IMG/VR virus record: IMGVR_UViG_3300025065_000185
Coordinates: 1-44,670 of that record
Strand: one strand, 5' to 3'
DNA length: 44,670 nucleotides
Origin: a virus
The stretch's first letter is position 1. Every line of letters starts with the position of its first letter. Both the position numbers and the translations under genes were made by a program. This document shows, piece by piece, positions 27,373 to 41,130 of this stretch. The notes beneath the pieces were generated by a model, which had not been told where the DNA came from, did no database searches, and was given only the letters and a program-made list of their open reading frames with translations.

Positions 27373-29362
27373 TTTGGATTGTGGGGAATAAAGATTCTTC
27401 CGCCTCTTCGATATCTTTACGCAAATCCATAGCTACTCCACCTTCGTCCTTCATAACATCCTCTTCTGGTAGATCAACAACTCTTGTATATTCCTTTTCT
27501 AGTTTCTGTAGATCGAACTGTGTTCCTTCTGGGTCTTCCATTGCTCGTGTTCTTGCTAATTCCATAAGCGCATTTACTTTAGCGAATTTCAGGTCTTTAT
27601 CATCAGCCAACATCCTCATTCCTTTAGCGTATACATCTGGTATTCCGCCTCTTTCTATGTATTCTTGGCTCCATAGATACTCAGGAGCAGCGGGGATGAA
27701 GCTGTCTGTTAGTCCTTTGAGTTTCTTATTTTCGATAAGAGTATTGTCCGTTGAATTGATATCGAACTTGCGCTTCTTATTTGTTGTAGAGTCGAACTTC
27801 TCCGAGAAGGCACGATCTTTTACACGGATCATAGTTCTAACCTTCTTCCTTCCAATCTTCCCGTTCACTAGTTCAAAATCTTCACCTGTTATCTCGCCTG
27901 CTTTTATCTTCTTTGCATACTTCTCTACCTCCTTCTCGGTAATATCCTCATAGTCCTCAACAGTAAGCTCAGACATCGCACCCGATAGAGTCAGTTGGCC
28001 TAGCTTACGGAAGCAGCCATTCTCTAGCACCTTCAGCTTGCTTTCAAACCTTCTATTTTGTGCTCTTATTCTTTGTGAGAGTTCAAACGCCGTTCTTGCT
28101 GTCTCTCCCTGTAGTTGTTTGAAGTTGACACCAGTCAAATAAATACACCAGTTGTCTAGCATCTCCATCATTACCTGATATTCGCCTGTTCTTGGCTGCC
28201 CAAAGGGATGAACCCCTATCTCTCCGTCAATAAAGTCACCTGAGTAGAAGTCTCTCGCGTCTAAATCTATCTGTGACGTCCCATCAAATGGCCTGTAACT
28301 AATTCCTACTGTGTTTGACAGTCTTACGTTATCAACCTGCATATTTGTAAGTGCCTGATACAGAGCATCAAACCCTCTCATTGTGAACGGTAATCCCATT
28401 GGGTACAAAGCTGTTGTTCTTAGGTTGTCATCGTACTGCATTTCGTTGGGGCCGAAACAGAAGGAGTGAACTCCTAGTGCGTTCATACCCGCTGTCCTTC
28501 TACCATCAGCCATTTCTTTCATTTGTAGCATTCCGTTCATTATTGGTACACCGTTTGCATAAACTCTTACGGAGTCGTTTTCCTCATCCTGTATCTTCCC
28601 TACTACGATCTTGTCCTTCTTTTCAATCTCTCGGTACATAAGCTCGTCTTGGTCTCCGAAGCCCATTGAAAGTCCAGGCTTTACATGTTCTGTGTTCTCG
28701 TATCTTGGTTTGGTTGTGCCATCTGCATTAAATACTACTGCGTGAGTGTATCTACGCTTGAATTCTAGCTCTGTTAGGTACTCCTCATCATAAACCTTCC
28801 TAACTTCCTGTAAGTTTGGTGATGATGGGTCTAACCACACTTCAAATGGGTTTCTGTGTCGTACCTCAATCTTCTCCCTTCGATAATCTCTTTTAACAAT
28901 AGGCTCCATCTTCCCCCCTTTTGTGGGCATTTGCACTGTTCTTACAGGATATTGATTAACAACCTCGTAAGTTCCCATATTCAGGTAGGTAAAGTCTGTT
29001 AGGAACTGGTGTTGTTTGGAGTCAAAGTTAGACATATCTAGGATATGGTCTATTGCACTACCCCAGAACACTGTTTTCTTGTAATCAGAAGCCGCTCCAG
29101 GCCTAAATCCAAATTCAGGCCTGCCTTCGTTTAGTGCTGCAATACTAGCTTCGCCAATCATCCTTGCAATTCCTATAAAAATGTTGGATGTATCACTTCT
29201 TGGTGTGGGATCAGCGATCATATTCGCAGCTTTAGCACCCATTTCCATTTGATCCTCAAAAGGCTGTCTGTATGTCTTAAAATGCTCAACCATCTCTTGA
29301 TCCTCCCGCATCAGTGTCTGCTGCTGAGGAGAAAGAATAATGGTTGGTTTATCAAGGGGCAT
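27236..29362 (-). CDS. Portal protein
   Basis: 708 aa, the usual size of a P22-like portal. Helical N-terminal region, a beta/mixed wing (about 150-330), a stem/clip region with TALYPMGLPFTMRGFDALYQAL (split by short loops), and a long acidic C-terminal tail (about 560-690). It follows TerL and accessory genes and precedes the head genes. Forms the dodecameric DNA channel. Starts inside the end of the zinc-ribbon gene. Confidence 0.75.
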   Translation of the reverse strand: MPLDKPTIILSPQQQTLMREDQEMVEHFKTYRQPFEDQMEMGAKAANMIADPTPRSDTSNIFIGIARMIGEASIAALNEGRPEFGFRPGAASDYKKTVFWGSAIDHILDMSNFDSKQHQFLTDFTYLNMGTYEVVNQYPVRTVQMPTKGGKMEPIVKRDYRREKIEVRHRNPFEVWLDPSSPNLQEVRKVYDEEYLTELEFKRRYTHAVVFNADGTTKPRYENTEHVKPGLSMGFGDQDELMYREIEKKDKIVVGKIQDEENDSVRVYANGVPIMNGMLQMKEMADGRRTAGMNALGVHSFCFGPNEMQYDDNLRTTALYPMGLPFTMRGFDALYQALTNMQVDNVRLSNTVGISYRPFDGTSQIDLDARDFYSGDFIDGEIGVHPFGQPRTGEYQVMMEMLDNWCIYLTGVNFKQLQGETARTAFELSQRIRAQNRRFESKLKVLENGCFRKLGQLTLSGAMSELTVEDYEDITEKEVEKYAKKIKAGEITGEDFELVNGKIGRKKVRTMIRVKDRAFSEKFDSTTNKKRKFDINSTDNTLIENKKLKGLTDSFIPAAPEYLWSQEYIERGGIPDVYAKGMRMLADDKDLKFAKVNALMELARTRAMEDPEGTQFDLQKLEKEYTRVVDLPEEDVMKDEGGVAMDLRKDIEEAEESLFPTIQNALLQSPLESSPAGTAPNPATPESLATREAPSVSNTEQRFATPLQ

Positions 29363-29765
29363 GACGGTTTCCTATTTTACACCTACTTACAAGAGACTTC
29401 AAATGGTTAAACAGTGCAACACGAAATGAGACTTTACCACCGCTCTTTGGATTCTCCTTCCTCGACCACGCATCCCTATCCTCCCGCCTCTTAATCTCCT
29501 CTTTCTCACACCATTTGTCATATTCTACTTGGTGTTCTAGTGGAGCAGTTACAGGAGGAGCATTGTATGTCTTCTCGTAATCCCAATCGTTCCATGATTT
29601 TGTGAAGCCCACTCCCAAGAAGCGTACAGGAGGCGAGTAAATCACTTTGTGCATTTCCCTTAACCACAGACAGAACGGACAGCGAAAGGATTCGGGGCTA
29701 CTTTCGAACTCTGCCTTAAGCTCTTTTTCGTAGCCGCATTTGCATCTGTAGGTGTAGATTGGCAT
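29352..29765 (-). CDS. FmdB-type zinc-ribbon protein (137 aa)
   Basis: Starts MPIYTYRCKCGYEKE and has a second pair CPFC at about 29-32, the FmdB/zinc_ribbon_8 pattern (MPxYxYxCxxCG). The rest is a Trp/Asp/Tyr-rich segment and a basic tail. Such proteins occur next to phage terminase and portal genes; role unknown. Overlaps both neighbours. Confidence 0.75.
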   Translation of the reverse strand: MPIYTYRCKCGYEKELKAEFESSPESFRCPFCLWLREMHKVIYSPPVRFLGVGFTKSWNDWDYEKTYNAPPVTAPLEHQVEYDKWCEKEEIKRREDRDAWSRKENPKSGGKVSFRVALFNHLKSLVSRCKIGNRHAP

Positions 29766-30211
29766 GTCCTACCCGTAATTAGTTTCAAAGGATTCTCGAA
29801 CCCATCATCCTCCAATTCCTTAATAAAGCCAAGCCTTTCAAATAACAGGCTTTTGTACCCCTTTGGCATAGGGCTATCGTCGTGCATTTCTTTCCACTCT
29901 CTTATCAGCGTAGCAGGATTCATCCTCTCCCATTCATCCCCCCATTGCTTAACGGTAATCCCAAATAATCTATGAGCGATGATCAGCCCCTTGTATCTCT
30001 CCCAGTCATCTACCTGCTCCTTCGCACATTCGATTCCCTTGTCTGTCATTAAAAAGTACGCCTCCTCTGCTGAGATTCTTTTGCCGTTGTATGGTTTTCC
30101 CCTCCTGGTTGATCTATAGAACCCTGCATCGTTACACTTCAGCCTCTTCTCTGGTAGTTGTGAGATAAAGTGCTCTAGCTTGGCCAGTGCTTTCTTATGC
30201 TTTCTCTTCAT
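29660..30211 (-). CDS. Hypothetical protein (183 aa)
   Basis: ATG 30211 overlaps the previous gene by 17 nt. Basic N-terminus (MKRKHKKALAKLEHF), then an alpha/beta body. Its last about 35 codons overlap the zinc-ribbon gene in another frame. No family recognised. Confidence 0.55.
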   Translation of the reverse strand: MKRKHKKALAKLEHFISQLPEKRLKCNDAGFYRSTRRGKPYNGKRISAEEAYFLMTDKGIECAKEQVDDWERYKGLIIAHRLFGITVKQWGDEWERMNPATLIREWKEMHDDSPMPKGYKSLLFERLGFIKELEDDGFENPLKLITGRTCQSTPTDANAATKKSLRQSSKVAPNPFAVRSVCG

Positions 30212-30389
30212 CTTCAATAAGTTCTGCTCTCAATTCCTTGAGAACATCTTTCAAAACTTCTCCAGCATCAGCACCTTCGGCAACTCTTTGTACAGCGTCA
30301 GTAAGTATGCCAAGCCTTACCATTTGGCCATAAAGAGCGCCGTACTCATTATTTACAAGACGGAGAAGGGTTTGTAGATTGGAGTCCAT
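30195..30389 (-). CDS. Hypothetical helical protein (64 aa)
   Basis: All-helical, acidic C-terminus. Leader is CTTCCCCCTAATTCCT, formed by the end of the upstream gene. Unrecognised. Confidence 0.55.
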   Translation of the reverse strand: MDSNLQTLLRLVNNEYGALYGQMVRLGILTDAVQRVAEGADAGEVLKDVLKELRAELIEDEEKA

Positions 30390-30394
30390 AGGAA

Positions 30395-30634
30395 TTAGGG
30401 GGAAGGAGAATATTCTTCAATATAATTTATTCTATCGGGGCGAAGATAAAGGGTTTTTCCATTTTTACCTGTGAATTTAACAAACCTTTCCTTTGATTTG
30501 ATCTTCTTTAGCACTTCTTCATGGCTTTCGCGGACATCTGCAACTTGTACGTATGATGACTTGTTCTCTCTAAAGTAAATCTGTGTTTTGAGAAATTCTT
30601 CATATGGCCGCTCCTCTGGCTTTCTTCCGAACAT
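30395..30634 (-). CDS. Hypothetical protein (79 aa)
   Basis: Basic N-terminus and a short beta domain (KFTGKNGKTLYLRPDRINYIEEY). Possibly a small DNA-binding or head protein. Preceded by TATAAG close to the ATG but no clear promoter. Confidence 0.5.
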   Translation of the reverse strand: MFGRKPEERPYEEFLKTQIYFRENKSSYVQVADVRESHEEVLKKIKSKERFVKFTGKNGKTLYLRPDRINYIEEYSPSP

Positions 30635-30654
30635 ACGCTTATAGCCTACACCTC

Positions 30655-31038
30655 TTATTCTCTAGTTCTATTGACAGAATATTTATTCTCTTGCGAGATC
30701 AAATAGAAGCCATCACCCTTCTCAAATATAACCTTCTTAGGCTTGTCAATCTCCTCTTGTGTGATCTTCATGTTCTCACCGATTTTCTCAGCAAGTATGT
30801 GTGCCAGCTCTTCCCAATCCCAATCCATATACTCACATATTAGCTCTCTTAGTCTCTCAAAGGAATGGTGAAGATTCGTCTTACATAAGCTAAAATCTTT
30901 TCTTACCTCATTAGTATCATAAAACTTCTGCCCTTCTAACTTCTCTATTCTGGACAAAAGAGACTCAAGACAAGTATTAAGATCACAAGAGACATAGAAT
31001 ATGTAGTTGCTCAATCTTGTTGCCTCTCTTACATCCAT
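30655..31038 (-). CDS. Hypothetical helical protein (127 aa)
   Basis: Helical, with three Cys in the first half (near 15, 18 and 51) and a long charged C-terminus. Lies between terminase and portal genes. No family recognised. Confidence 0.5.
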   Translation of the reverse strand: MDVREATRLSNYIFYVSCDLNTCLESLLSRIEKLEGQKFYDTNEVRKDFSLCKTNLHHSFERLRELICEYMDWDWEELAHILAEKIGENMKITQEEIDKPKKVIFEKGDGFYLISQENKYSVNRTRE

Positions 31039-31042
31039 ATCC

Positions 31043-31258
31043 CTATCTTAACCTACTTCTAACAGACAACAAGACCGAATCCACATATGGCAATACCACC
31101 CTATACAGATTCTTAGAATAGTCAGCCACTGGAACAAACCTATCACCATCACGAGCTACATACGTACGCTCATTCCTAATCTCAATCTCACGCAGCCCAC
31201 ATGCCTTACACTTTCTCCTGCCACGTAAGAAAGGCGGAAAGTCATGGTTGCATGACAT
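31043..31258 (-). CDS. Small zinc-knuckle protein (71 aa)
   Basis: ATG 31258 is used; it follows the terminase stop by 7 nt. C3-x-H5, then C18-x2-C21 inside a basic segment (RGRRKCKACGLRE), matching a one-zinc knuckle. The remainder is beta-like and basic. May act with the terminase. Confidence 0.5.
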   Translation of the reverse strand: MSCNHDFPPFLRGRRKCKACGLREIEIRNERTYVARDGDRFVPVADYSKNLYRVVLPYVDSVLLSVRSRLR

Positions 31259-31265
31259 ACCCCCA

Positions 31266-32678
31266 TCATAGCCCCACCTGCTTCTGCCATCCAGTACTTG
31301 CACGGCGCTTCTTTTTCTTTTGTGACGGCTTCTCTGTAAGCAAAGGATAAAAGGTCATACACGCTGCATCCGCGATATCTGGCGAAGCTAACCCTCTCCT
31401 CTTCATATCCTCCTTTCTCTCCATTACAAGCTTTCCATTTGAATCAAAGCTGTAATAAATACCAATCGTATCTTCTCTAAATTCTTCTGTAAGCGACCCC
31501 TCATTCAACCATTGTTTATATCTCTTCCACAGTTCTGCTCTCATATTCTTACAATCTTCCATTCTTGGTTTTTCAGAGACATTTACTCCTATTACATCAA
31601 TCTTTTGCTCTTTCAGTCTATCCAGCACGCCTGCCCCAATACCAATTACATCGACGCAAACAAATGTATAGGGCTCACCTTCATAATCTGCTTGTTCTAT
31701 TGCATTTATAACTTGGCCAACTATCTGCATTGTATCTTGCCCCCTAAGCATTTTAATCAATCTCATTTCTTTACCCTTCCGCTCAACTAACACCGATCTA
31801 TCATTCCCAAACCTTGCAACGTCAACTCCTAATGTTTTAGGTTCATGTGGAAATGTTTGTACTTTGTTGTATAAAGCCTTTTCATATAACTCAGCAGAAA
31901 TGAATTGCTGCTCCTCCTGCTGTGGTGGCAATCCCAATACACGAACTCTATAAGGATCAGATGTCCTACCGTATTCACGCTCAATCTCAGTTATGTAACT
32001 TCTATCAACTCTTGGGACATCCAAGCAAGAAACAGTGAACGTATGCCATTTTCCTGAGTCTTTGCTGTCACCCTCTTGCCATTTATTAAGCCCAAAGCAC
32101 TCGTGGAACTTTCCAGTGTTCCGCGTCGGGTTTCCAAGTACTAACCATCTAGCACCTTTAGTAGTCATTGCCCCCGCCGATGTTTCCCAAATGATTTCAG
32201 GGATAGCAGAGGCTTCATCGAATACCATCAAGACATTCTCTTCGTGTGTTCCTGCAAACGCTTCAGGCTTCTCTTCTCTGTGTGGAACAGCAGAAGCAAA
32301 CCAAGTATCTGATCCTTTCATTGAGAACCTTGTAGCTGTTATTTCAAAAGCATCCTTGTTTACAGCGTTCTCATTTATCTTTGCGAGCTCTCTCCATGAT
32401 TTGTCTTTAAGTTGGGATTGTGTGTTAGCAGTGACCACGATTTGGGGATTTGCCCTTGTGGCAATGAACCAATGAATGACACTGGCCGCCAATCTTGTTT
32501 TTCCAACTCCATGCCCAGAGCGGATAGCAACTCGTCTATGTTGTTTGATGCTATCCAAAACCTTTTCTTGCCATTCGTCAGGAGTAAAGCGGAGGACAGC
32601 TCTACAATATCTTGCAGGATCATCTCTGAATTCTTTTGCGATAAAGGCCGAGACTTCTGCGACATCTGCTGGGTTCAC
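31266..32678 (-). CDS. terL: Terminase large subunit
   Basis: 470 aa. ATPase domain with Walker A GHGVGKT at 55-61 and Walker B VLMVFDEA at 149-156, then a coupling motif GNPTRNTGKF (182-191). C-terminal RNase H-like nuclease with GVDVARFGND (284-293, catalytic Asp286), a second acid in VCVDVIGIGAG (near 343) and SPDIADAACM near the end. It cuts and pumps DNA into the prohead through the portal. GTG start overlaps the TerS stop (GTGA). Confidence 0.9.
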   Translation of the reverse strand: MNPADVAEVSAFIAKEFRDDPARYCRAVLRFTPDEWQEKVLDSIKQHRRVAIRSGHGVGKTRLAASVIHWFIATRANPQIVVTANTQSQLKDKSWRELAKINENAVNKDAFEITATRFSMKGSDTWFASAVPHREEKPEAFAGTHEENVLMVFDEASAIPEIIWETSAGAMTTKGARWLVLGNPTRNTGKFHECFGLNKWQEGDSKDSGKWHTFTVSCLDVPRVDRSYITEIEREYGRTSDPYRVRVLGLPPQQEEQQFISAELYEKALYNKVQTFPHEPKTLGVDVARFGNDRSVLVERKGKEMRLIKMLRGQDTMQIVGQVINAIEQADYEGEPYTFVCVDVIGIGAGVLDRLKEQKIDVIGVNVSEKPRMEDCKNMRAELWKRYKQWLNEGSLTEEFREDTIGIYYSFDSNGKLVMERKEDMKRRGLASPDIADAACMTFYPLLTEKPSQKKKKRRASTGWQKQVGL

Positions 32679-33028
32679 TTGGTAGATTGTAGCTCCTCTT
32701 TAACCTTGTCCGCCACCGACACTGTGGCATTTATATTCTGATCTGGTTTTCCTTCCATCCTATCAGCAACCTTCTCAAACGCTTTAACATCTCCATCTTC
32801 CATCCTATTCCATATAGCATCAGCAGCTAACTCTTTTCTTGTCAGTTGATCTTTTTTCTGATCTGCAATCTTTACAAACAAGTCTCGCCAAGTCCAAGCA
32901 GAGTCAGGTCTTCCTTCTGGATTAGGACTCTTGCCCCCCTTCTCCCAAGCAGGATTACCTGCTAAGAGGTTTTTGTGTTTCGATTGTTTCTTTACTTTCT
33001 TTTCCTTTGTTGTCTCGTTCTTTTTCAT
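32675..33028 (-). CDS. Putative terminase small subunit / DUF5681-like protein
   Basis: 117 aa. Basic N-terminus, then GNPAWEKGGKSPNPEGRP (residues about 24-41), the hallmark of DUF5681-type proteins found next to TerL, then WRDLFVKIAD helices and ADRMEGKP near 91-98. Directly upstream of terL with a GTGA overlap, so a DNA-recognition role in packaging is likely. Starts leaderless. Confidence 0.65.
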   Translation of the reverse strand: MKKNETTKEKKVKKQSKHKNLLAGNPAWEKGGKSPNPEGRPDSAWTWRDLFVKIADQKKDQLTRKELAADAIWNRMEDGDVKAFEKVADRMEGKPDQNINATVSVADKVKEELQSTK

Positions 33029-33110
33029 GATTAGATTGTATCACATTTTCTGGGTCAATGATATTCCCAAATCCTCTTCTGTTGCCTAATTTGACTTGTA
33101 GCTTTTTCAT
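32955..33110 (-). CDS. Small basic protein overlapping the terminase small subunit (51 aa)
   Basis: Begins at an ATGA overlap with the previous gene's stop and runs 51 codons (MKKLQVKLGNRRGFGNI start), Lys/Glu-rich at the end. The last 74 nt overlap the TerS-like gene in another frame. The exact stop/start coupling supports it; the overlap weakens it. Confidence 0.35.
   Translation of the reverse strand: MKKLQVKLGNRRGFGNIIDPENVIQSNHEKERDNKGKESKETIETQKPLSR
33029..33040 (-). promoter_or_regulatory. Leaderless promoter before the terminase genes
   Basis: Minus-strand TACAAT at 33035-33040 preceded by TGA (extended -10), then CTAATC and ATG 33028. It lies inside the overlapping 51-codon frame. 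Confidence 0.6.
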
Positions 33111-33337
33111 TGTAGAAGTAGGTCAGCAGAGTCTAAAGCTATTCTAGCAGCTTCTTCCTTTTCATATTTACCATTAGCTAACATAGAGCTAAGGATTATA
33201 GCTGCTAGTTGTACTCTTTCTGGTAGGGCTTCGTCTAAGTATTGGTAAATCGCATCCAGCTTTTTGTGTGCTGTTTCAGCATCCTTTTTGTTGGAGTTGT
33301 AGATTTCTTTGATTTTGTCAGAAGGTTTTTTCATCAT
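33107..33337 (-). CDS. Hypothetical helical protein (76 aa)
   Basis: Two adjacent ATGs; TACTAT ends 5 nt before the first. Helical, Ala/Leu-rich, no cysteines. First of the small early-type genes upstream of the terminases. Unrecognised. Confidence 0.5.
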   Translation of the reverse strand: MMKKPSDKIKEIYNSNKKDAETAHKKLDAIYQYLDEALPERVQLAAIILSSMLANGKYEKEEAARIALDSADLLLQ

Positions 33338-33354
33338 GGGTTATAGTAACATTT

Positions 33355-33531
33355 TTAGATATTGAAACCCAGTAGGGCAAAGCATTCTTTTATGCTCTTT
33401 TTGCGTTTTGTTTTGTTGTTGTAAAAAGGGATTGATTTTATTGTAGTTTCTTTTCCCTTAACCTGGGCGCGTATTTCCAGCTTGTGCTCATCTACATGTA
33501 AGAAAGGATTAATACAGACTGTTTTTTTCAT
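33355..33531 (-). CDS. Small basic protein (58 aa)
   Basis: ATG 33531 is 6 nt after a TACAAT hexamer (33538-33543). Lys-rich, beta-like in the middle, ends in a hydrophobic helix. The start lies within the stop of the upstream gene (ATGA). Unrecognised. Confidence 0.5.
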   Translation of the reverse strand: MKKTVCINPFLHVDEHKLEIRAQVKGKETTIKSIPFYNNKTKRKKSIKECFALLGFNI

Positions 33532-33710
33532 GTGACTATTGTATTCCATATCTTCTTAACATGGAAGATGCTGGCATATGTTAGTAACGGCCAGCAGTAC
33601 CAAGGCAATCTCTTCCAATGGTCTAATATCCAATAGTATGGAGCCTTATGCAAAGTTCTGAGACTCGATCCTCTGCACATATGCATGTAGGGTAAGTCTC
33701 TTATCCTCAT
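33528..33710 (-). CDS. Trp/His-rich small protein (60 aa)
   Basis: Starts on ATGA overlap; TACAAT also ends exactly 6 nt before it (33717-33722, preceded by TGC), so it may be coupled and also have its own promoter. Rich in Trp, Tyr, His and Arg with several Cys; could be membrane-peripheral. Composition is unusual, so coding is only moderately supported. Confidence 0.4.
   Translation of the reverse strand: MRIRDLPYMHMCRGSSLRTLHKAPYYWILDHWKRLPWYCWPLLTYASIFHVKKIWNTIVT
33532..33543 (-). promoter_or_regulatory. Leaderless promoter (TACAAT-N6-ATG)
   Basis: TACAAT at 33538-33543, then AGTCAC and ATG 33531, embedded in the end of the preceding gene. Confidence 0.6.
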
Positions 33711-33895
33711 GCTTTCATTGTAGCAGTAATAGCAGTGGTTCCGCTAATATTCCAGTCTGGGTCTCTGTGGAACTGGTACATGTGGTCTTCTAACATTTCA
33801 ACAGCAAGGGAGGGGGTAGCAGCTCCTACTGACCAATCACAATGTTCACAGTCAATAAAGTGTACTGTTGCCGTCCTTGTTTTGCGGATTCTCAT
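33707..33895 (-). CDS. Small zinc-knuckle protein (62 aa)
   Basis: C-x2-C (CEHC near 16-19) and two His downstream (near 38 and 43), a C2H2-like spacing; basic N-terminus. Coupled by ATGA to the 14-aa peptide before it. May be a DNA-binding regulator. Confidence 0.5.
   Translation of the reverse strand: MRIRKTRTATVHFIDCEHCDWSVGAATPSLAVEMLEDHMYQFHRDPDWNISGTTAITATMKA
33711..33722 (-). promoter_or_regulatory. Leaderless promoter (TACAAT-N6-ATG)
   Basis: TACAAT at 33717-33722 with extended TGC, then GAAAGC and ATG 33710, inside the last codons of the preceding gene. Confidence 0.5.
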
Positions 33896-33936
33896 TTCTT
33901 TTTCTTAGAACGCCGCTTTTTTCCTTTGCAGGGCAT
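33892..33936 (-). CDS. 14-aa basic leader-type peptide
   Basis: MPCKGKKRRSKKKK, starting 6 nt after TACAAT and ending by ATGA overlap with the next gene. Extremely basic. It could be a short functional peptide or serve to deliver ribosomes to the next gene by leaderless initiation and reinitiation. Confidence 0.45.
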   Translation of the reverse strand: MPCKGKKRRSKKKK

Positions 33937-33948
33937 AGTTGTATTGTA
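33937..33948 (-). promoter_or_regulatory. Leaderless promoter (TACAAT-N6-ATG)
   Basis: TACAAT at 33943-33948, preceded by TGT (extended -10), then ACAACT and ATG 33936. It begins 6 nt after the CCA end of the tRNA. Confidence 0.6.
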
Positions 33949-33953
33949 ACACA

Positions 33954-34028
33954 TGGTGGACAACAGATGAATTGCACATCTTACCTCTCGGGTGTAGACC
34001 GAGCGCTCTGCTAATGAGCTAGTTGTCC
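33954..34028 (-). tRNA. Degenerate tRNA, anticodon TAC (Val) by standard numbering
   Basis: A full cloverleaf can be drawn: acceptor GGACAAC/GTTGTCC (7 bp) with discriminator A and encoded CCA, D stem GCTC/GAGC, anticodon stem CTCGG/CCGAG with loop TCTACAC, variable AGGTA, T stem AGATG/CATCT. Unusual: position 33 is C not U, the D loop (ATTAGCA) lacks the G18-G19 pair, and the T loop is TGCAATT with G at 55. All stems are perfect, so selection is on structure even though the elbow contacts are lost. Confidence 0.75.
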
Positions 34029-34035
34029 TAACAAA

Positions 34036-34082
34036 AGAGACAGCGACCAACGCCCAGCTGGAACTATTGGTTCGGTGTCTCT
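34036..34082 (-). terminator. Long hairpin before the tRNA, possible terminator
   Basis: AGAGACA pairs with TGTCTCT, and an inner CGA-CCAA/TTGG-TTCG stem continues it. Read on the minus strand it is followed by TTTTGTT and then the tRNA. It may terminate transcription from upstream, or be a tRNA-processing signal. Confidence 0.5.
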
Positions 34083-34127
34083 AGTATTACAACGATAAAC
34101 TGAAACAGGTGTTACAGTCAAGGTGTG

Positions 34128-34150
34128 TAATGTCTTTTTTATACGAAGTT
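34128..34150. repeat. Direct repeat, left copy
   Basis: TAATGTC-T6-ATACGAAGTT; a second copy with two fewer Ts is at 34611-34631. The two copies flank the gene at 34179-34526. The right copy includes the last codons (Tyr-Asn-Phe-Val-stop) of the next gene, so the left copy looks like a duplicated fragment of that gene's end. Confidence 0.6.
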
Positions 34151-34168
34151 CCCTTTCAGCACAGGTCA
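34148..34168. repeat. Inverted repeat, left copy
   Basis: 21 bp (GTTCCCTTTCAGCACAGGTCA) matching the reverse complement of 34564-34584 at 19 of 21 positions. With the direct repeat it frames a cassette of about 0.5 kb. Confidence 0.6.
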
Positions 34169-34178
34169 TAAATAAAAA

Positions 34179-34526
34179 TTAGCCTTGTGTTGGCTCCGCT
34201 TCCTTTGCCTTTAAGAAGGCATCATATTCTTTTGGTGTTTTCTTTTTGACCTCATTGACTTTTTCTTCCTGATAAATCTCCGACAACAGGAAATCTGATA
34301 GTGCGCCCTCCAATTCCTTCTTGGCGCAGGTAATGTAATCTCTGAACATTGTATCTGATACATAATCGAAGCGTATGCTTTCTAAGATTTCGTATGCCTC
34401 GATTATTTGTTTTTTAACAACTTCTGCTCTCGCCTTTGAAATCCTTGCTTCGCGCAAGTCTCTTCTCTTTTGCCTGATTAGTCTTTCTTCTTCTGTAATT
34501 GGTTCTGGTTTGGCTTCATGTTCCAT
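34179..34526 (-). CDS. Helical protein in repeat-flanked cassette (115 aa)
   Basis: ATG 34526 follows TAACCCATTTTTTATC, a leader of the C/T type, and a small hairpin (34544-34562). Acidic/basic helical, probably a coiled coil in residues 15-60. No family recognised. The only gene inside the repeat-bounded cassette. Confidence 0.55.
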   Translation of the reverse strand: MEHEAKPEPITEEERLIRQKRRDLREARISKARAEVVKKQIIEAYEILESIRFDYVSDTMFRDYITCAKKELEGALSDFLLSEIYQEEKVNEVKKKTPKEYDAFLKAKEAEPTQG

Positions 34527-34563
34527 GATAAAAAATGGGTTATCCCTATTCTTCCAATAGGGC

Positions 34564-34584
34564 TGACCTGTGCTGACAAGGAAC
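34564..34584. repeat. Inverted repeat, right copy
   Basis: TGACCTGTGCTGACAAGGAAC; inverted partner of 34148-34168 with two mismatches. Confidence 0.6.
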
Positions 34585-34593
34585 CGAGAATAG

Positions 34594-34599
34594 TATATC
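34594..34599 (-). promoter_or_regulatory. Promoter of the cassette gene
   Basis: TATACT preceded by TGA on the minus strand (extended -10), about 70 nt before the ATG at 34526. The RNA leader would contain half of the inverted repeat, the CCCTATT/AATAGGG hairpin (34544-34562) and a T-run. Confidence 0.4.
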
Positions 34600-34610
34600 A
34601 CAACTTCCAA

Positions 34611-34631
34611 TAATGTCTTTTATACGAAGTT
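34611..34631. repeat. Direct repeat, right copy
   Basis: TAATGTC-T4-ATACGAAGTT; overlaps the 3' end of the 53-aa gene. A chance resemblance to one loxP arm is explained by the codons for Tyr-Asn-Phe-Val-stop. Confidence 0.6.
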
Positions 34632-34781
34632 ATAGCGCCTCTGAAATTCATCGAATGTCATTGTTTCCCAAAAGACGGCATAACCGCGATCATTTGCTCT
34701 TTGGAAGCACCCACACTCTTTGCCTTCGCACTCGATATCGTGCTGAAATCCGTCCTGTGGTTCAAATGGATTGTTGGTCAT
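34620..34781 (-). CDS. Small Cys-rich protein coupled to the repressor (53 aa)
   Basis: ATG 34781 overlaps the XRE gene stop (ATGA). Three Cys (near 18, 23, 25) form a C-x4-C-x-C cluster; the rest is acidic and aromatic. As the second gene of the repressor operon it may be an antirepressor or partner. Confidence 0.5.
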   Translation of the reverse strand: MTNNPFEPQDGFQHDIECEGKECGCFQRANDRGYAVFWETMTFDEFQRRYNFV

Positions 34782-35074
34782 CTTTTTAGGATTAACATGA
34801 GAAGTGCATCCATAAAACCATTAATCTTATCCACAAGCTCTCGTTCCTCTTTGTTCGTTGTGCGCTCAAGGTCATCCTCGTTCCATTCAAATAGAATAGC
34901 TGGCACATTGTATCGATTGGCGAGATCAGTAAGTACAGCCCCGCTTGGCGTTTTGTACCCACCCTCAATCAAGCACAGATAAGAGGCAGATATTCCACAA
35001 TCCTCAGCCACCTCATCTTGCCTAAGATTCAATGATTCTCGTAGAAGCCGTAGGAGTTTGCCTTTCTTAATCAC
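34778..35074 (-). CDS. XRE-type helix-turn-helix regulator (98 aa)
   Basis: LLRLLRESLNLRQDEVAEDCGISASYLCLIEGGYKTPSGAVLTDLANRYNV (in parts) is a textbook Cro/C1-type HTH: recognition helix around residues 28-38, dimer/scaffold helix after it. Start GTG 35074 is 6 nt after TAATAT. An inverted repeat overlapping the promoter suggests autorepression. Likely controls early transcription or immunity, though no integrase is present. Confidence 0.75.
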   Translation of the reverse strand: MIKKGKLLRLLRESLNLRQDEVAEDCGISASYLCLIEGGYKTPSGAVLTDLANRYNVPAILFEWNEDDLERTTNKEERELVDKINGFMDALLMLILKR

Positions 35075-35080
35075 ACAGGC

Positions 35081-35105
35081 ATATTACCTTAACAAATAGT
35101 TAAAG
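35081..35105 (-). promoter_or_regulatory. Leaderless repressor promoter with operator
   Basis: TAATAT at 35081-35086 is followed by 6 nt and GTG 35074. Immediately upstream, CCTTAAC-AAATA-GTTAAAG (35087-35105) is an inverted repeat overlapping the promoter upstream region, a likely operator of the XRE protein. Confidence 0.55.
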
Positions 35106-35164
35106 CAAATAGATCATATTGACAATTCTTAATCTCTCATTGAAATATATTCGCATAAGGAGTG

Positions 35165-35260
35165 TTATACGCCAAAAGGCCGCAAGGCTAACACCAACAA
35201 TGGGGCAGCCATTACAACAACCATAAAAACCATTACTACAAAGAATTCTAAGTTTGACAT
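35165..35260 (-). CDS. Tiny membrane protein (31 aa)
   Basis: MSNLEFFVVMVFMVVVMAAP then a short hydrophobic/basic end. Single membrane span. ATG 35260 is 6 nt after TACACT (35267-35272, extended TGC). GGAGG is also present but touches the start codon, too close for normal pairing. Confidence 0.5.
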   Translation of the reverse strand: MSNLEFFVVMVFMVVVMAAPLLVLALRPFGV

Positions 35261-35275
35261 GCCTCCAGTGTAGCA

Positions 35276-35434
35276 CTACTGCCCCATTTCAAGATATTGC
35301 TTTGGACAAAAAAACCTCTTCCCATCTTTTTCCATAAGCACCAAGTCCTTTGTGAATTCCTCTCCAAGCCTGTCCCAAAAAGCCACTGTGAGGATGAGCA
35401 CTAGGTCATTCCACATGTTACTTAGAGATTTCAT
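35276..35434 (-). CDS. Hypothetical small protein (52 aa)
   Basis: ATG 35434 lies 6 nt after TATACT (35441-35446, extended TGC). Helical N-terminus, one Cys, basic middle. Unrecognised. Confidence 0.55.
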   Translation of the reverse strand: MKSLSNMWNDLVLILTVAFWDRLGEEFTKDLVLMEKDGKRFFCPKQYLEMGQ

Positions 35435-35446
35435 GCAAAGAGTATA
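35435..35446 (-). promoter_or_regulatory. Leaderless promoter (TATACT-N6-ATG)
   Basis: Extended -10 TGC-TATACT, then CTTTGC and ATG 35434. A CTTGATTTATACAA element lies upstream, shared with the next promoter. Confidence 0.6.
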
Positions 35447-35467
35447 GCAGAACTCCCCTTGTATAAA

Positions 35468-35680
35468 TCAAGCCACAGCTTTCATTTTAGCTATTTTTCT
35501 ATATGGAAGATGTGCCACAGAATTTCCTGTTGGATCAGTAACAGGCATCCATTGCATCCCACATCCACCGCAAAATATATAATAATTCCTGCGAGACAAT
35601 CTTAAATCCGAATGGCAACAAGCGACATCAGGCTCATGCTCCTCGTAGAACTCTGCTTCTGGCACTGGTTTTGAGAACAT
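35468..35680 (-). CDS. Zinc-ribbon protein (70 aa)
   Basis: C-C near 21-22 with a nearby His, then C-G-G-C (CGGCGMQWM near 37-44), consistent with one zinc site like phage replication or transcription-factor ribbons. ATG 35680 is 6 nt after TATAAT. Confidence 0.55.
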   Translation of the reverse strand: MFSKPVPEAEFYEEHEPDVACCHSDLRLSRRNYYIFCGGCGMQWMPVTDPTGNSVAHLPYRKIAKMKAVA

Positions 35681-35692
35681 ATCTCAATTATA
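35681..35692 (-). promoter_or_regulatory. Leaderless promoter (TATAAT-N6-ATG)
   Basis: TATAAT at 35687-35692 (consensus), TGAGAT, ATG 35680. The element CTTGATTTATACAA lies just upstream. Confidence 0.65.
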
Positions 35693-35709
35693 CACCCCTA
35701 TTGTATAAA

Positions 35710-35910
35710 TCAAGGCAACTCAACACTTCTCACCTCGTAGTCAATATCCAAGTGCTCATGCCCTTGGAGAAAATCAGCATACATTTCAGCGTATTCCTTA
35801 TCATAGAAAAACGCCAGACAGCCAAACTCTTTATTCTTGTGTGTAATATCTTTATCCCAGAAGGCTATATCTTCCTCTTCGCCAGTAGGGGTAACGTAGT
35901 GGACTTTCAT
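35710..35910 (-). CDS. Hypothetical acidic protein (66 aa)
   Basis: ATG 35910 is used because TGG-TATGCT ends 6 nt upstream; the frame stays open further 5' without support. Beta-alpha pattern (MKVHYVTPTGEEEDI) and Tyr/Asp/Glu-rich. Unrecognised. Confidence 0.5.
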   Translation of the reverse strand: MKVHYVTPTGEEEDIAFWDKDITHKNKEFGCLAFFYDKEYAEMYADFLQGHEHLDIDYEVRSVELP

Positions 35911-35922
35911 ACCCCTAGCATA
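35911..35922 (-). promoter_or_regulatory. Leaderless promoter (TATGCT-N6-ATG)
   Basis: Extended -10 TGG-TATGCT (35917-35922), AGGGGT, ATG 35910; the third CTTGATTTAT element overlaps it. Confidence 0.5.
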
Positions 35923-35950
35923 CCATAAATCAAGGGAGGGTGTAGGGGGG

Positions 35951-36142
35951 TCAACCAAATCCAGTATAAAGAATAGTTAAGGCGTGTTTTCTGTCTGGGG
36001 TTTTTTCCCATACACCAAAATCTCTTATGACTGCCCTAGCTTCTTTTAGATTGATTACTCGTCCTTTGAGTCTCATTTCCTTCTCCACCAATAGGCGAGC
36101 CATCTTTTCTTCCGTTGATTTCTTATCCTTAACAGTAAGCAT
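35951..36142 (-). CDS. Small basic helical protein (63 aa)
   Basis: ATG 36142 follows TACCAT (36149-36154, extended TGA) by 6 nt. Lys/Arg/Glu-rich helix then a short beta end. Could bind nucleic acid; unrecognised. Confidence 0.5.
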   Translation of the reverse strand: MLTVKDKKSTEEKMARLLVEKEMRLKGRVINLKEARAVIRDFGVWEKTPDRKHALTILYTGFG

Positions 36143-36154
36143 GGTTCTATGGTA
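36143..36154 (-). promoter_or_regulatory. Leaderless promoter (TACCAT-N6-ATG)
   Basis: TGA-TACCAT at 36149-36154, AGAACC, ATG 36142. Confidence 0.45.
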
Positions 36155-36182
36155 TCAAAAGTCAGAAGGAGGTGTAAGGGGA

Positions 36183-36371
36183 TTAATAATCCCCACTTTC
36201 ATAAAAAATAACCTTTGATTCAGATGTATCAACTTCTTTGACGTAAATCTCTTTTGTGTGGCTGATAGTCTCCTTCGCTATTTTCCTTGCCTCCTTCTTG
36301 TCTTTTGCAGCTATAACAAGACCACACGGAACAGGCCACATCGGGGAGAAATCAACAACAAATATCTTCAT
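36183..36371 (-). CDS. Small alpha/beta protein (62 aa)
   Basis: ATG 36371 (MKIFVVDF) is 6 nt after TAGACT; an in-frame GTG lies 6 nt upstream. A ferredoxin-like beta-alpha-beta pattern (KIFVVDF, GLVIAAKDKKEARKIAKE, EIYVKEV). Similar short phage proteins are common; function unknown. Confidence 0.55.
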   Translation of the reverse strand: MKIFVVDFSPMWPVPCGLVIAAKDKKEARKIAKETISHTKEIYVKEVDTSESKVIFYESGDY

Positions 36372-36383
36372 ATCCACAGTCTA
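36372..36383 (-). promoter_or_regulatory. Leaderless promoter (TAGACT-N6-ATG)
   Basis: TGG-TAGACT at 36378-36383, GTGGAT, ATG 36371. Confidence 0.5.
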
Positions 36384-36422
36384 CCAAAATAAAAGGGGAC
36401 TTGCTAGAGGTGTTTAGGTGGG

Positions 36423-36635
36423 TCAAGCCCAATAGATCACCACATTTCCGAAATTATCAAAATAGAATTCATAGGGGCTGACAACTCCTTCCTCGTCAAA
36501 AAACCTTTGAATTTCCGTTGCAACATTTTTTGGGAATTTCCCTTCTGCCTCAGAAAATAGTCTCCCAGATTCGGCAAAGACTAGAAACCTTGGGAATCGC
36601 GCCGCAAAGTGATGACGTGGATAAATCTTTCTCAT
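36423..36635 (-). CDS. Hypothetical protein (70 aa)
   Basis: ATGA overlap with the preceding gene. Basic N-terminus and beta-like C-terminal strands (VSPYEFYFDNFGNVVIYW). Unrecognised. Confidence 0.5.
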   Translation of the reverse strand: MRKIYPRHHFAARFPRFLVFAESGRLFSEAEGKFPKNVATEIQRFFDEEGVVSPYEFYFDNFGNVVIYWA

Positions 36636-36945
36636 TGCATCTCAAAAACTTCTACAAAACCATCCCCACGATTAAATGCCTTCACAGCTACCGACTCCTT
36701 AACTGTCATTTGCCTCCCTACGCCGTTAGTACAAAAAAGAGATTCAACCTCCGTGATAGCCTCTGATGAACTATAAACACCGTGCACGAAATAATGAGTC
36801 ATCCCCATTTCATAACGATCCTCAACATTGTCCTCATTGCCATCTGGAAGTTTCTTGCGCTGCTCCTTTACAATAACATAATAAGATCGCTCGATGGCGC
36901 CTAGCTCATTAGGACTTGTTAGTGATTCCTTGCTTGTTTTAGCCA
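36632..36945 (-). CDS. Hypothetical protein (104 aa)
   Basis: Start at ATG 36945 is chosen because it follows the C-rich leader CTTGCTTACCCACCTACATC; the frame is longer but its N-terminal extension overlaps the divergent replication gene. Beta-rich with a two-strand repeat. Unrecognised. Confidence 0.55.
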
Positions 36946-36977
36946 TGATGTAGGTGGGTAAGCAAGTAGGTGCTCGT

Positions 36978-36983
36978 ATCATA
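36978..36983 (-). promoter_or_regulatory. Promoter of the leadered gene at 36945
   Basis: Extended -10 TGC-TATGAT on the minus strand. About 7 nt later the RNA would begin and run through a leader of about 25 nt, ACCTACTTGCTTACCC..., showing what the C-rich leader looks like directly behind a promoter. Confidence 0.5.
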
Positions 36984-37025
36984 GCACATGTCAACCCACA
37001 AAAGAAAAGCCCCGACATTTTGGAT

Positions 37026-37055
37026 TTGACTCCACGCCTGTGGGGGGGGTAGGAT
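37026..37055 (+). promoter_or_regulatory. Promoter for the replication-type gene
   Basis: TTGACT (37026-37031), an 18-nt spacer containing eight Gs, TAGGAT (37050-37055). The RNA would carry a leader of about 105 nt that includes the dyads described next. Confidence 0.45.
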
Positions 37056-37065
37056 AGGGGGCGAT

Positions 37066-37151
37066 GCTTGCACACTTCACATCTACTTCGTCGGTTTTGA
37101 GCGGTGCGCACCAGTGTGCAAGCACTTTTTGGTGTGTGCCGCTCAGAGCCG
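37066..37151 (+). other. Complex dyad region, candidate origin or attenuator
   Basis: A large imperfect hairpin, 37092-37151 (CGG-GAGCGG-CACCA paired with TGGTG-CCGCTC-CCG), contains in its loop GTGTGCAAGC (37114-37123), which can instead pair with GCTTGCACAC at 37066-37075. The two folds exclude each other. It lies just upstream of the initiator-like gene, between divergent transcription units, a common place for a phage origin. The whole gap 36946-37166 has no gene. Confidence 0.5.
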
Positions 37152-37166
37152 ATGCCGTAATGTGAT

Positions 37167-37898
37167 ATGAACTCTTTTTGGTTCTCCCACGACTTCAATG
37201 CGCGAAACGACCCGCGAATGCTTGCACTACGAGCAGAGTTTGGTGCGGAAGGATACGGGATATTTTTCATGCTGATAGAGATAATGCACAATGAAAACGG
37301 GTATATAAAAATTGATAGTGGGATTGTTTTTGATGTTCGGGAAAGTGAAGCCGGATTAACAGAAAGGGTGGTTAAAGCCTGCCTAAAGCTAGGCTTATTT
37401 ATGGAGAACAAAAAGGGCGTGTATTCCCCCCGTGTTTTAAGGAATATAGAAACACGAAAAATACTTAGAGAGGCTGGAAGGCGTGGTGGAAAAAAAGGCA
37501 AGAGAAAGGGAAAAAACAAGCCACCCTCAAGCCCCCCTCAAGCCACCCCCCAAGCAAACAGACAGGATAAGACAGGACAAGATAAGATAAGACAGGATAT
37601 TAACGAGTGTAATTCGCTCACTCCAGCACAAGAAGCAAGGATGTTTTTTTCAGACGAGATTATTCAACAGAAAGTAATTGATTACCTATCGAATCAAGGA
37701 GCCGAGCGAGAAAATGCCCGCGCCGAGATTGACAAATTTGTTTCTTGGTGGACTGAGAAAAATAAAAGTGGAACCAAACAAAGATGGGAAATTGAAAAAA
37801 CCTTTGAAGTTAAGCGCAGGCTGAAAACATGGTTAGACAGATCGAAACAATTTAAGCCGTTCTCAGGGCAGGTAAAGCGTGTCCTTTTTGCAGGATGA
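37167..37898 (+). CDS. Replication-type protein with DUF4373 (Lin1244/Lin1753-like) domain
   Basis: 243 aa. Residues 4-90: FSHDFNARNDPRMLALRAEFGAEGYG then a winged-helix-like core, the pattern of DUF4373 domains found in phage replisome-organiser proteins. A basic linker (GKKGKRKGKNK) and Gln/Pro-rich hinge follow, then a C-terminal helical domain with a Trp-rich end (WWTEKNKSGTKQRWEIEKTF). Probably binds the adjacent dyad and recruits host replication enzymes, since the phage has none of its own. Confidence 0.65.
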   Translation: MNSFWFSHDFNARNDPRMLALRAEFGAEGYGIFFMLIEIMHNENGYIKIDSGIVFDVRESEAGLTERVVKACLKLGLFMENKKGVYSPRVLRNIETRKILREAGRRGGKKGKRKGKNKPPSSPPQATPQANRQDKTGQDKIRQDINECNSLTPAQEARMFFSDEIIQQKVIDYLSNQGAERENARAEIDKFVSWWTEKNKSGTKQRWEIEKTFEVKRRLKTWLDRSKQFKPFSGQVKRVLFAG

Positions 37899-38272
37899 GA
37901 TACATTGTATTTTTCTTTGACGGCACTACAAAACGGATTCCACAAGAAGCCGCGCCCGCCTTCATGGAAGCAATGCGGACAAAGGATGTGGTGTTTTATC
38001 GTGGCTCGTCTTATTCCGGCAGTGGAATATCCAAAGTTAAAACCCTGTATTCGTTTTACGAGGACAAAACACTGGAAGCTGAACAAGACGGAAAATTCTT
38101 TTGTAAGTACGGATGCCTCCATGATTCAAAACTTGATTGTGGATGCAGAGATGCAAAAAAAGAAAAAATGCTCTCACAGGAAGAAGTAGAAATCCTAAGA
38201 CTCCCCCCAGAAAAACGCCCTAATTCTTTACCCAAACCCCAAAATGACAAACTGTTGGCAATGTCAGAATAG
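37895..38272 (+). CDS. Hypothetical protein with Cys cluster (125 aa)
   Basis: ATGA overlap with the initiator gene. Beta-rich N-terminus, Cys cluster C-x3-C and later C-x-C near 73-88 that may bind zinc. Unrecognised. Confidence 0.5.
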   Translation: MRYIVFFFDGTTKRIPQEAAPAFMEAMRTKDVVFYRGSSYSGSGISKVKTLYSFYEDKTLEAEQDGKFFCKYGCLHDSKLDCGCRDAKKEKMLSQEEVEILRLPPEKRPNSLPKPQNDKLLAMSE

Positions 38273-38435
38273 GTACGATGACGACTCATGCCCCTACTGT
38301 GGTGCTCCAAAATGCAATCCTAAAGAGATTGTAGACGAAGCCGATAGGCGCACACTAGGCATACCAGAGCCAGAAGATGTAGGGCAAATGCAAAAACTTT
38401 CTGATATTCTTAAATCCCCAAGGAAACTATCTTAA
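38244..38435 (+). CDS. Zinc-ribbon protein (63 aa)
   Basis: C-x2-C (CWQC) at 4-7 and C-x2-C (CPYC) at 16-19, a compact zinc ribbon, followed by an acidic helical tail. Overlaps the previous gene by 29 nt. Confidence 0.6.
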   Translation: MTNCWQCQNRYDDDSCPYCGAPKCNPKEIVDEADRRTLGIPEPEDVGQMQKLSDILKSPRKLS

Positions 38436-38463
38436 CTATTCTGTCCTTTTCTCCAAAACTGTT

Positions 38464-38622
38464 ATGACCCAGCAAGACATCTACTACGCAGAACTTAGAC
38501 TTGATAAGCTGATACAAGAATACCTTAATGCGTGTCATCGTTTTAAGGGTTTCCAGCACTCTTCTGTCGGGTTAGCTCTTGCAAAGAAAATGAATGATTT
38601 ACAAAAGCTGACAGAAGATTAA
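38464..38622 (+). CDS. Hypothetical helical protein (52 aa)
   Basis: MTQQDIYYAELRLDKLIQEY start; all-helical. Leader is TGTCCTTTTCTCCAAAACTGTT. Unrecognised. Confidence 0.5.
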   Translation: MTQQDIYYAELRLDKLIQEYLNACHRFKGFQHSSVGLALAKKMNDLQKLTED

Positions 38623-38636
38623 ACCTATTTCCTTCC

Positions 38637-38849
38637 ATGCCACACTTTTCAAAAGCAATAGGCTATGTAGATGGAATGGGTGTTCCAATGCCCGATGCTT
38701 TTAGTTTGCAGTCGGGATATTATTATGACGCTCATTGCAGGAAATGTGGAGAAGAGCTTACTGCCTGCCAAGCCATATGCGAGCGTCCGTGTAGAAATTG
38801 TGGTTTTCCATGTCACAGATCGTTTCCTAGATTTATAAGTTTTGACTAA
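38637..38849 (+). CDS. Zinc-ribbon protein (70 aa)
   Basis: Two C-x2-C sites (CRKC near 35-38 and CRNC near 54-57) with additional Cys, a rubredoxin/knuckle-like spacing; leader is ACCTATTTCCTTCC. Confidence 0.55.
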   Translation: MPHFSKAIGYVDGMGVPMPDAFSLQSGYYYDAHCRKCGEELTACQAICERPCRNCGFPCHRSFPRFISFD

Positions 38850-38871
38850 CCTATTTCCTTCCTTCTGAGTT

Positions 38872-39105
38872 ATGGAAAAAACATGGATTAAAAAAATTGA
38901 TCCCAAGGTAATGGCAGAAGCAGAAAGACTTGCAAAATCAGTCTACAACGGCATTGAAAGAGATTGGGGATATTCTATGGCTACATGGTTTGGATTGGAT
39001 GCCAGCAAAATGACTGACGAACAGTTAATGGCTTGGGGCAAAGTTCCATTTCCTAAATCTGATACTTGCTACGAATGTGGACAAAAACTTCCCCAAAATC
39101 CTTAA
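38872..39105 (+). CDS. Hypothetical protein with C-terminal CxxC (77 aa)
   Basis: Helical body and a single CYEC pair five to ten residues from the end. Leader is CCTATTTCCTTCCTTCTGAGTT, nearly the same as that of the previous gene. Confidence 0.5.
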   Translation: MEKTWIKKIDPKVMAEAERLAKSVYNGIERDWGYSMATWFGLDASKMTDEQLMAWGKVPFPKSDTCYECGQKLPQNP

Positions 39106-39132
39106 TCCTAAACCTCTTCCCCATAACTAATT

Positions 39133-39282
39133 ATGGAACAAGTTATTGTTAATCCTCACGCTGGCTGGTCAAAGATTGAAGTGAATGAACCTGATCCTTT
39201 GTGGACTTTGTGGTTCTGGGGATCATTCCTGTTGACTGCATTCGTAGCTAGCTTATTACTTCCCAAATCTCTTCCCCAATAG
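39133..39282 (+). CDS. Small membrane protein (49 aa)
   Basis: A polar N-terminus with Trp residues, one membrane helix (about 27-43, LWFWGSFLLTAFVASLLL) and a short Pro/Lys tail. Leader is CTCTTCCCCATAACTAATT. Confidence 0.5.
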   Translation: MEQVIVNPHAGWSKIEVNEPDPLWTLWFWGSFLLTAFVASLLLPKSLPQ

Positions 39283-39309
39283 CTCTCTTATTTCTTTACG
39301 TTAAAGGTT

Positions 39310-39543
39310 ATGGAATGCACATGTCCAAAAGATGAAGAGACATATTGGTTTCTTCCTCCATGTAAACAACATGGTTCTCTAAACCCCAAAAATCCATTTG
39401 TTCAATATCGGAACAAAGCATGGATAGAAGGAATGAGGCTAAATGCTGAATCTGGATATACTGATTGTAACGGATTTAAGATGGACGATAAAATGAGGGC
39501 AAGTAATCTATTTACGGAAGCTCACACCACTCCTCCCCACTGA
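39310..39543 (+). CDS. Hypothetical Cys/His protein (77 aa)
   Basis: C3-x-C5 and later C17-x2-H20 near the N-terminus suggest a zinc site. Leader is CTCTTATTTCTTTACGTTAAAGGTT. Ends 2 nt before the next gene. Confidence 0.5.
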   Translation: MECTCPKDEETYWFLPPCKQHGSLNPKNPFVQYRNKAWIEGMRLNAESGYTDCNGFKMDDKMRASNLFTEAHTTPPH

Positions 39544-39545
39544 AT

Positions 39546-39728
39546 ATGACTTGCCAATGCCCAAAAGTGACAGAGGAAATGCACAAGCATAATCAAAAAT
39601 GTCCTGATTGTGGCAAGCGATCTCTGTATTCTTATGAACAAGAATCAGCCGAAGACGCTTTCATGAGAATCATGGAGGAGATGGGAGTTTCGTTTGAAGA
39701 TTGTACTATTGAAGAAAGCGGGGACTAG
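39546..39728 (+). CDS. Zinc-binding small protein (60 aa)
   Basis: C3-x-C5, then H13 and H15, and C19-x2-C22 make a plausible zinc site; acidic C-terminus. Its stop is inside the first hairpin of the structured intergenic region. Confidence 0.5.
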   Translation: MTCQCPKVTEEMHKHNQKCPDCGKRSLYSYEQESAEDAFMRIMEEMGVSFEDCTIEESGD

Positions 39729-39847
39729 CTTTCGCTAGCCCCCTAGGCAGTGCCTAACGCTCTTTACGCAACTCTATAGCATAGGCTACTCCTTTTACAG
39801 GGGACGGTTAGTAAAGAACGTAAATGGGGAGTTGCGAACAACTCCCC
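39720..39847. other. Structured intergenic region between convergent genes
   Basis: GGGG-CTAGC-TTTC-GCTAG-CCCC (39720-39742) and a perfect 9-bp stem GGGGAGTTG-CGAA-CAACTCCCC (39826-39847) bracket further pairable segments (CTCTTTAC with GTAAAGA; GCAACTC with GAGTTGC). 39729-39912 holds no gene. It may be two terminators for the convergent units, or one folded RNA. Confidence 0.5.
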
Positions 39848-39912
39848 GTGCCTCCCACAAGTTCCCAAAGGCGCAGTGATGCGTAGTTATTTTTGAAACT
39901 AGGAAGGCACAC

Positions 39913-40074
39913 TTATTTTAACACAGCGTCTTCAATTTTCTTCATACAGTCATCACAAAACACTTTCCAAATCTGGAACAATCCATTTAATGACTTCATT
40001 AAGATTGGCATGCCCGTGCCTCTGAACTCTTCGCCACAAGTTTCACACTCCATTTTTGTAATTTCTAAAAGCAT
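39913..40074 (-). CDS. Zinc-binding small protein (53 aa)
   Basis: CETC near 10-13 and CDDC near 40-43, a paired C-x2-C site, separated by a hydrophobic helix. ATG 40074 is 6 nt after TATGAT on the minus strand, in the bidirectional promoter. Confidence 0.55.
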   Translation of the reverse strand: MLLEITKMECETCGEEFRGTGMPILMKSLNGLFQIWKVFCDDCMKKIEDAVLK

Positions 40075-40711: not shown

Positions 40712-40780
40712 AACGTGCCTATGAGAAGTTGCATCCAACACCCATTATGCTAGACTGAGTTCGCATAATAACGAGTTAGG

Positions 40781-40861: not shown

Positions 40862-40864
40862 CTC

Positions 40865-41128: not shown

Positions 41129-41130
41129 AC

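Follow-up and report, generated by a model that had tools for sequence, protein, structure and literature searches.

Leaderless genes are known in bacteria, chiefly from the Actinobacteria and Deinococcus-Thermus, where the hexamer TANNNT lies about 12 bp upstream (PMC3160421). In E. coli, bidirectional promoters with a pseudo-symmetric -10 element give divergent transcription, with preferred spacings of 18, 10 and 23 bp between the two transcription start sites (PMC12825309). Among organisms scarce in Shine-Dalgarno (SD) sites, Candidatus Peribacter riflensis is recorded with 7% SD and without CCUCC (PMC10783764, Table 4). How do the genes of virus record IMGVR_UViG_3300025065_000185 compare? 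The window analysed here is the whole of that IMG/VR record, 44,670 bases. A series of its genes, most densely those at 33-36.4 kb, begin exactly 6 nt after a TANNNT hexamer (TANNNT-N6-RTG, the N6 element), and its operon-internal genes follow a C-rich signal. We consider it likely that the two together make up the start grammar of its host, probably a bacterium of the Peribacteria/Peregrinibacteria type within the candidate phyla radiation (CPR), or close kin in the same class.

The initial annotation of this DNA listed 17 starts that follow a TA-N3-T hexamer by exactly 6 nt, and all 17 do so. Eleven lie on the minus strand within 33028-36371; the others are at 987 (+), 26862 (-), 40074 (-), 40089 (+), 41788 (-) and 41803 (+). 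Two of them, 35074 and 41803, are GTG codons. The extension of the hexamer, described as mostly TGN, holds for a majority: T occurs at -15 in 11/17, G at -14 in 13/17 and the full TG in 11/17, the start at 987 being without it. A pyrimidine stands at -1 in every case, so that a pyrimidine-purine initiator coincides with the start codon.

Is the spacing a property of starts or of the base composition? Circularity was avoided by calling genes on codon usage alone, with no bonus for promoter or ribosome binding site. The N6 element precedes 12 of the 74 called starts as against 41 of 2521 other RTG codons (Fisher p=1.2e-8) and 10 of 1250 internal sense RTG codons (p=1.6e-10). No enrichment is seen before called starts at spacings of 2-5 or 7-12 nt; N6 is the sole enriched spacing. 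Inspection of the regions upstream of the N6 starts revealed no SD, and in the cluster region promoter-like -35/-10 pairs are not in excess (7 against 10.0 expected). From the spacing and the promoter form we conclude that the pattern is real, and its form is that expected if transcription began at the first base of the start codon. The 17 starts thus read as leaderless genes on extended -10 promoters, with about one promoter to each small gene, as the initial annotation had it; the point of transcription start and the mode of translation we infer from the sequence. The genes with a single N6 promoter are as follows.

32675-33028, minus strand: small-terminase-like gene (DUF5681), first of the terminase/structural unit; TGATACAAT-N6-ATG.
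33355-33531, minus strand: leaderless small gene, 58 amino acids (aa); TACAAT-N6-ATG.
33528-33710, minus strand: leaderless small gene, 60 aa; TGCTACAAT-N6-ATG.
33892-33936, minus strand: leaderless micro open reading frame of 14 aa, rich in lysine and arginine, MPCKGKKRRSKKKK; TGTTACAAT-N6-ATG.
34778-35074, minus strand: helix-turn-helix (HTH) repressor-like gene with a leaderless GTG start; TAATAT-N6.
35165-35260, minus strand: hydrophobic peptide, 31 aa; TGCTACACT-N6-ATG.
35276-35434, minus strand: leaderless small gene, 52 aa; TGCTATACT-N6-ATG.
35468-35680, minus strand: leaderless small gene, 70 aa; TATAAT-N6-ATG.
35710-35910, minus strand: leaderless small gene, 66 aa; TGGTATGCT-N6-ATG.
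35951-36142, minus strand: leaderless small gene, 63 aa; TGATACCAT-N6-ATG.
36183-36371, minus strand: leaderless small gene, 62 aa; TGGTAGACT-N6-ATG.
26668-26862, minus strand: leaderless gene within the structural half; TATAAT-N6-ATG.
30655-31038, minus strand: additional start, 127 aa, downstream of the terminase and absent from the initial list; TAAGAT-N6-ATG.
987-1139, plus strand: possible leaderless start, 50 aa; TACATT-N6-ATG, no TG.

If these genes dispense with leaders, how do the remaining genes start? An SD-like core precedes 2 of the 76 called genes of the window. Where a start is not leaderless, positions -15/-14 are often T and positions -12 to -10 often C, G is depleted, and a positioned TTHCCC occupies -15 to -10. 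One gene may serve as an example.

22994-23392, minus strand: leadered gene with the C-rich signal and no SD; TTCTTTCCCCTATAAATC-ATG.

The same start profile, TTHCCC signal and no SD, recurs almost unchanged in MW202647 (Manatee Spring), a distant relative in which the structural gene order is conserved and the capsid, portal and tail proteins are 30-38% identical. MW202647 also carries an abiF RNA (RF03085) above the gathering score (L031:45725-45761). Other phages with related terminases have SD at 56/129 internal genes and the N6 element at 0/116 operon-first genes. Kinship in the terminase alone thus goes with the use of SD, and the start grammar cannot be put down to the terminase lineage.

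Taken together, these features suggest the following scheme. A sigma-70 type extended -10 element (TGNTANNNT, no -35) would set position +1 on the A or G of the start codon, after a pyrimidine. Each small gene would then be its own transcription unit, with an mRNA that begins with the start codon. Because the virus is essentially without SD sites, the ribosome would have to accept a 5'-terminal RTG directly. Operon-internal genes would rely on the C/T-rich, G-poor signal TTHCCC at -15 to -10. The probable host would match this arrangement, having a 16S rRNA tail without CCUCC and operon-first genes that are often leaderless.

Which bacteria use such a grammar? The genome_contigs collection (84,980 species) was scanned for the C-rich motif before rpsS. 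Five genomes matched: two were cyanobacteria, apparently by chance, and three belonged to one CPR order, namely a Peregrinibacteria bin (L035), a Peribacteria genome (L038) and a further member (L037). Upstream of the ribosomal genes in L035 and L037, and of several in L038, the sequence is rich in pyrimidines and SD is absent. The comparison then took in samples of 80-280 kb from seven genomes of the order. SD was found at 0/68, 0/87 and 1/63 operon-internal genes of G020, G029 and G053, respectively; the exception is G016 (4/11 internal genes, a small sample). The N6 element precedes 23/131 operon-first genes of G020 (p=2e-23), 24/136 of G029 and 14/84 of G053. The TANNNT peak of the order lies at N6, spread over N6-N8 in some genomes, and the 84 pooled N6 sites show TGN, with G(-14) in 57% and Y(-1) in 90%. 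G020 and G053 display the C-rich peak clearly; in G029 (38% GC) it is weaker, and in G004 and G034, of which the samples were small, it cannot be made out. The grammar is thus common to the virus and the Peribacteria/Peregrinibacteria, as would be expected of a phage of these bacteria, and we infer a host in this class, with the order as the best match.

Several observations weigh against so specific an assignment. MW202647 has the C-rich signal yet little N6 signal, and the N6 element falls by chance at 7/129 operon-internal genes of the control phages. In the class genomes, which are few, there is no close prophage, portal or terminase, and the tRNA-Val of the phage has no full match. The order genomes contain no spacer-like match to window 25001-44670, and a DNA search of the same interval against the order gave a single 65-bp match, window 41534-41598, at 78% to G046, where the counterpart (C30:37964-38027) lies upstream of fusA and has no Rfam match. 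As routes to a host, terminase, portal, tRNA-Val and DNA matches in the class and order yielded nothing convincing, and L151 looked uninformative. Moreover, the class outside the order is likewise without SD (1/38 internal genes) and has N6 starts, so that the host could lie outside the order. It is possible, though we judge it a good deal less probable, that the same grammar evolved in some other SD-less lineage, another CPR class or an unsampled group, and that the host belongs there. The SD-less lineages covered systematically here were this order and its class, and several further lineages are listed as SD-scarce (PMC10783764). Against this stands the rpsS scan of some 85,000 genomes, which led to the one order and to nothing else but the two cyanobacteria.

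An actinobacterial or Deinococcus setting, which the initial annotation implied, fits poorly. Hosts of that type use SD in their leadered genes; the leadered genes of the window lack it, and the C-rich signal common to the Peregrinibacteria replaces it. TANNNT leaderless genes are common in those groups (PMC3160421), but we regard a host among them as very unlikely, and bacteria of the Peribacteria/Peregrinibacteria type as a much better fit.

Do the small genes of the cluster form a dedicated early regulon, as was first proposed, with a phage-specific promoter class switched on jointly early in infection? The density of promoters at 33-36.4 kb speaks for it, as does the presence of an HTH repressor-like gene inside the cluster (HTH_31, 3.1e-10; phrog_8, transcriptional regulator), whose product may possibly regulate there. 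However, the element is also found at the head of the terminase unit (33028) and before 31038, 26862 and the genes at 40-42 kb (40074/40089, 41788/41803), and in candidate-host genomes it starts housekeeping genes (tsaD/lgt, rpiB/tpiA). Beyond the -10 element no operator-like motif is common to the listed starts, CTTGATTTAT occurring in three of them. Polymorphism is uninformative, since the near-identical contig is 100% identical across window 13041-37050. The designations regulon and early class are therefore not supported, and we think a dedicated early regulon improbable; the promoters are dense because the cluster consists of one-gene units.

Some genes of this region deserve separate mention. 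The product of 32675-33028 matches Pfam DUF5681 at 6.9e-6, just under the family cut-off, and its gene is homologous to that preceding the terminase in MW202647. The TGA of the micro open reading frame 33892-33936 shares bases with the ATG of the gene that follows (33707-33895), which suggests translational coupling. Immediately upstream of the 33936 promoter lies a tRNA-Val (TAC) with encoded CCA, 33954-34028. A loxP-like site (34600-34633, ACAACTTCCAATA-ATGTCTTT-TATACGAAGTTAT) agrees at 28/34 positions with what we take to be the P1 loxP sequence, its right arm exactly; together with a half-site at 34140 it brackets the gene 34179-34610, and no Cre-like gene could be identified.

At two places the leaderless promoters of divergent genes are merged into one palindrome.

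40072-40091, both strands: bidirectional leaderless promoter CATGCTATAATCATAGCATG, with overlapping extended -10 elements on opposite strands.
39913-40074, minus strand: its leftward gene, 53 aa; zinc-ribbon-like matches weak, below cut-off.
40089-40358, plus strand: its rightward gene, 89 aa.
41786-41805, both strands: bidirectional leaderless promoter CATGCTACAATCATATCGTG, starts 41788 (-) and 41803 (+, GTG).
41597-41788, minus strand: its leftward gene, 63 aa.
41803-42120, plus strand: its rightward gene, a VRR-NUC nuclease gene (PF08774, 8.5e-7) with a leaderless GTG start.

The start codons at 40074 and 40089 are separated by 14 nt, and the TG of each extended -10 element overlaps the start codon of the opposite gene. 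Conventional leaders for both genes would be hard to fit here, unless the promoters lay inside the opposite genes. Instead, a single palindromic -10 pair would drive both one-gene units. The pattern occurs twice in the window as against 0.01 expected. A near-identical 20-bp palindrome, CATGCTATGATCATAGCATG, lies between the divergent tsaD and lgt genes of an order genome (G045), whose starts are correctly placed because the family models begin at residues 3 and 4; there, as in the window, overlapping -10 elements on both strands precede divergent genes, as in a bidirectional promoter. Similar layouts are found in G068 (CCA-adding enzyme / endonuclease IV-like) and G067 (two glycosyltransferases). 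Across 74 genomes the palindrome is not enriched over the reversed control (12 sites against 13), and 3 of its sites fall between two long divergent genes; in these genomes it is an occasional device. The strict palindrome is present in 42 viral contigs, with two long divergent frames in a few but not in most; it stands between such frames in contigs L166, L168, L182, L175, L202 and L190. The device may thus be wider among viruses, the frames there being putative genes. A match to GCCTTGTGCGRAGTGCRAGG in the viral contigs (L160) proved to be an unrelated coding match.

What becomes of the anti-SD in such bacteria? In 51 tails of the order (L040-L070, L091-L110), the 16S rRNA continues after helix 45 as ATGGAACA-[CUUCC/UCUCC/UUUCC]-UUACC-AGGGA(A/G). 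CCUCC is absent from 48 of the 51 and kept in 3. The two arms covary: UUCC/GGGAA in 28 tails, CUCC/GGGAG in 20, UUUC/GGAAA in 1 and UUCC/GAGGA in 1, the exception being one tail with CUCC and GGGAA. The altered tail is nearly confined to the order; G291 and G292, of the class but outside the order, retain ACCUCCUUUCU, followed by AGGGAG. One might imagine that SD pairing is rewired, the anti-SD (CUUCC/UCUCC) being locked in a hairpin with AGGGA(A/G) and UUCCC/CUCCC in the mRNA acting as a mirror-image SD, either by pairing with the GGG arm or by opening the hairpin, while leaderless first genes bypass it and the phage has adopted both modes. We hold this to be rather unlikely. Strict pairing between the mRNA motif and AGGGA(A/G) predicts CTCCC where the genome has GGGAG and TTCCC where it has GGGAA, which was not seen: G053, with GGGAA, has CTCCC 6 times and TTCCC 4 times, contrary to the prediction. 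The hairpin may be confined to the 16S precursor.

From the grammar of start sites alone, hosts could be suggested for orphan viruses. A large group of uncultured, ultra-small bacteria appears to replace SD initiation by leaderless mRNAs and a C-rich signal, and gene finders tuned to SD may put the starts of its genes, and of those of its phages, in the wrong place. The compact, natural bidirectional leaderless promoters predicted here are open to trial in standard expression systems. A literature search, with most subscription journals and preprints outside its reach, returned no account of leaderless genes among these bacteria and none of a phage that starts its genes in this way; priority is not thereby established.

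How, then, does the virus stand beside the described systems? Like the known leaderless genes (PMC3160421), its genes have a -10 hexamer directly upstream of the start and no SD; unlike those groups, we are dealing with a phage and a CPR order whose leadered genes are also without SD. As in the bidirectional promoters of E. coli (PMC12825309), a pseudo-symmetric -10 element is predicted to drive divergent units, but the two putative +1 sites are spaced by 15 bp rather than 18, 10 or 23, and both would be start codons. The SD-scarce organisms of PMC10783764 include the same lineage, and loss of the canonical anti-SD was already recorded there for one species. The papers searched contained none of the features added here: leaderless starts of the N6 kind, the C-rich signal, the hairpin of the 16S tail with its covarying arms, and a phage that shares these rules.

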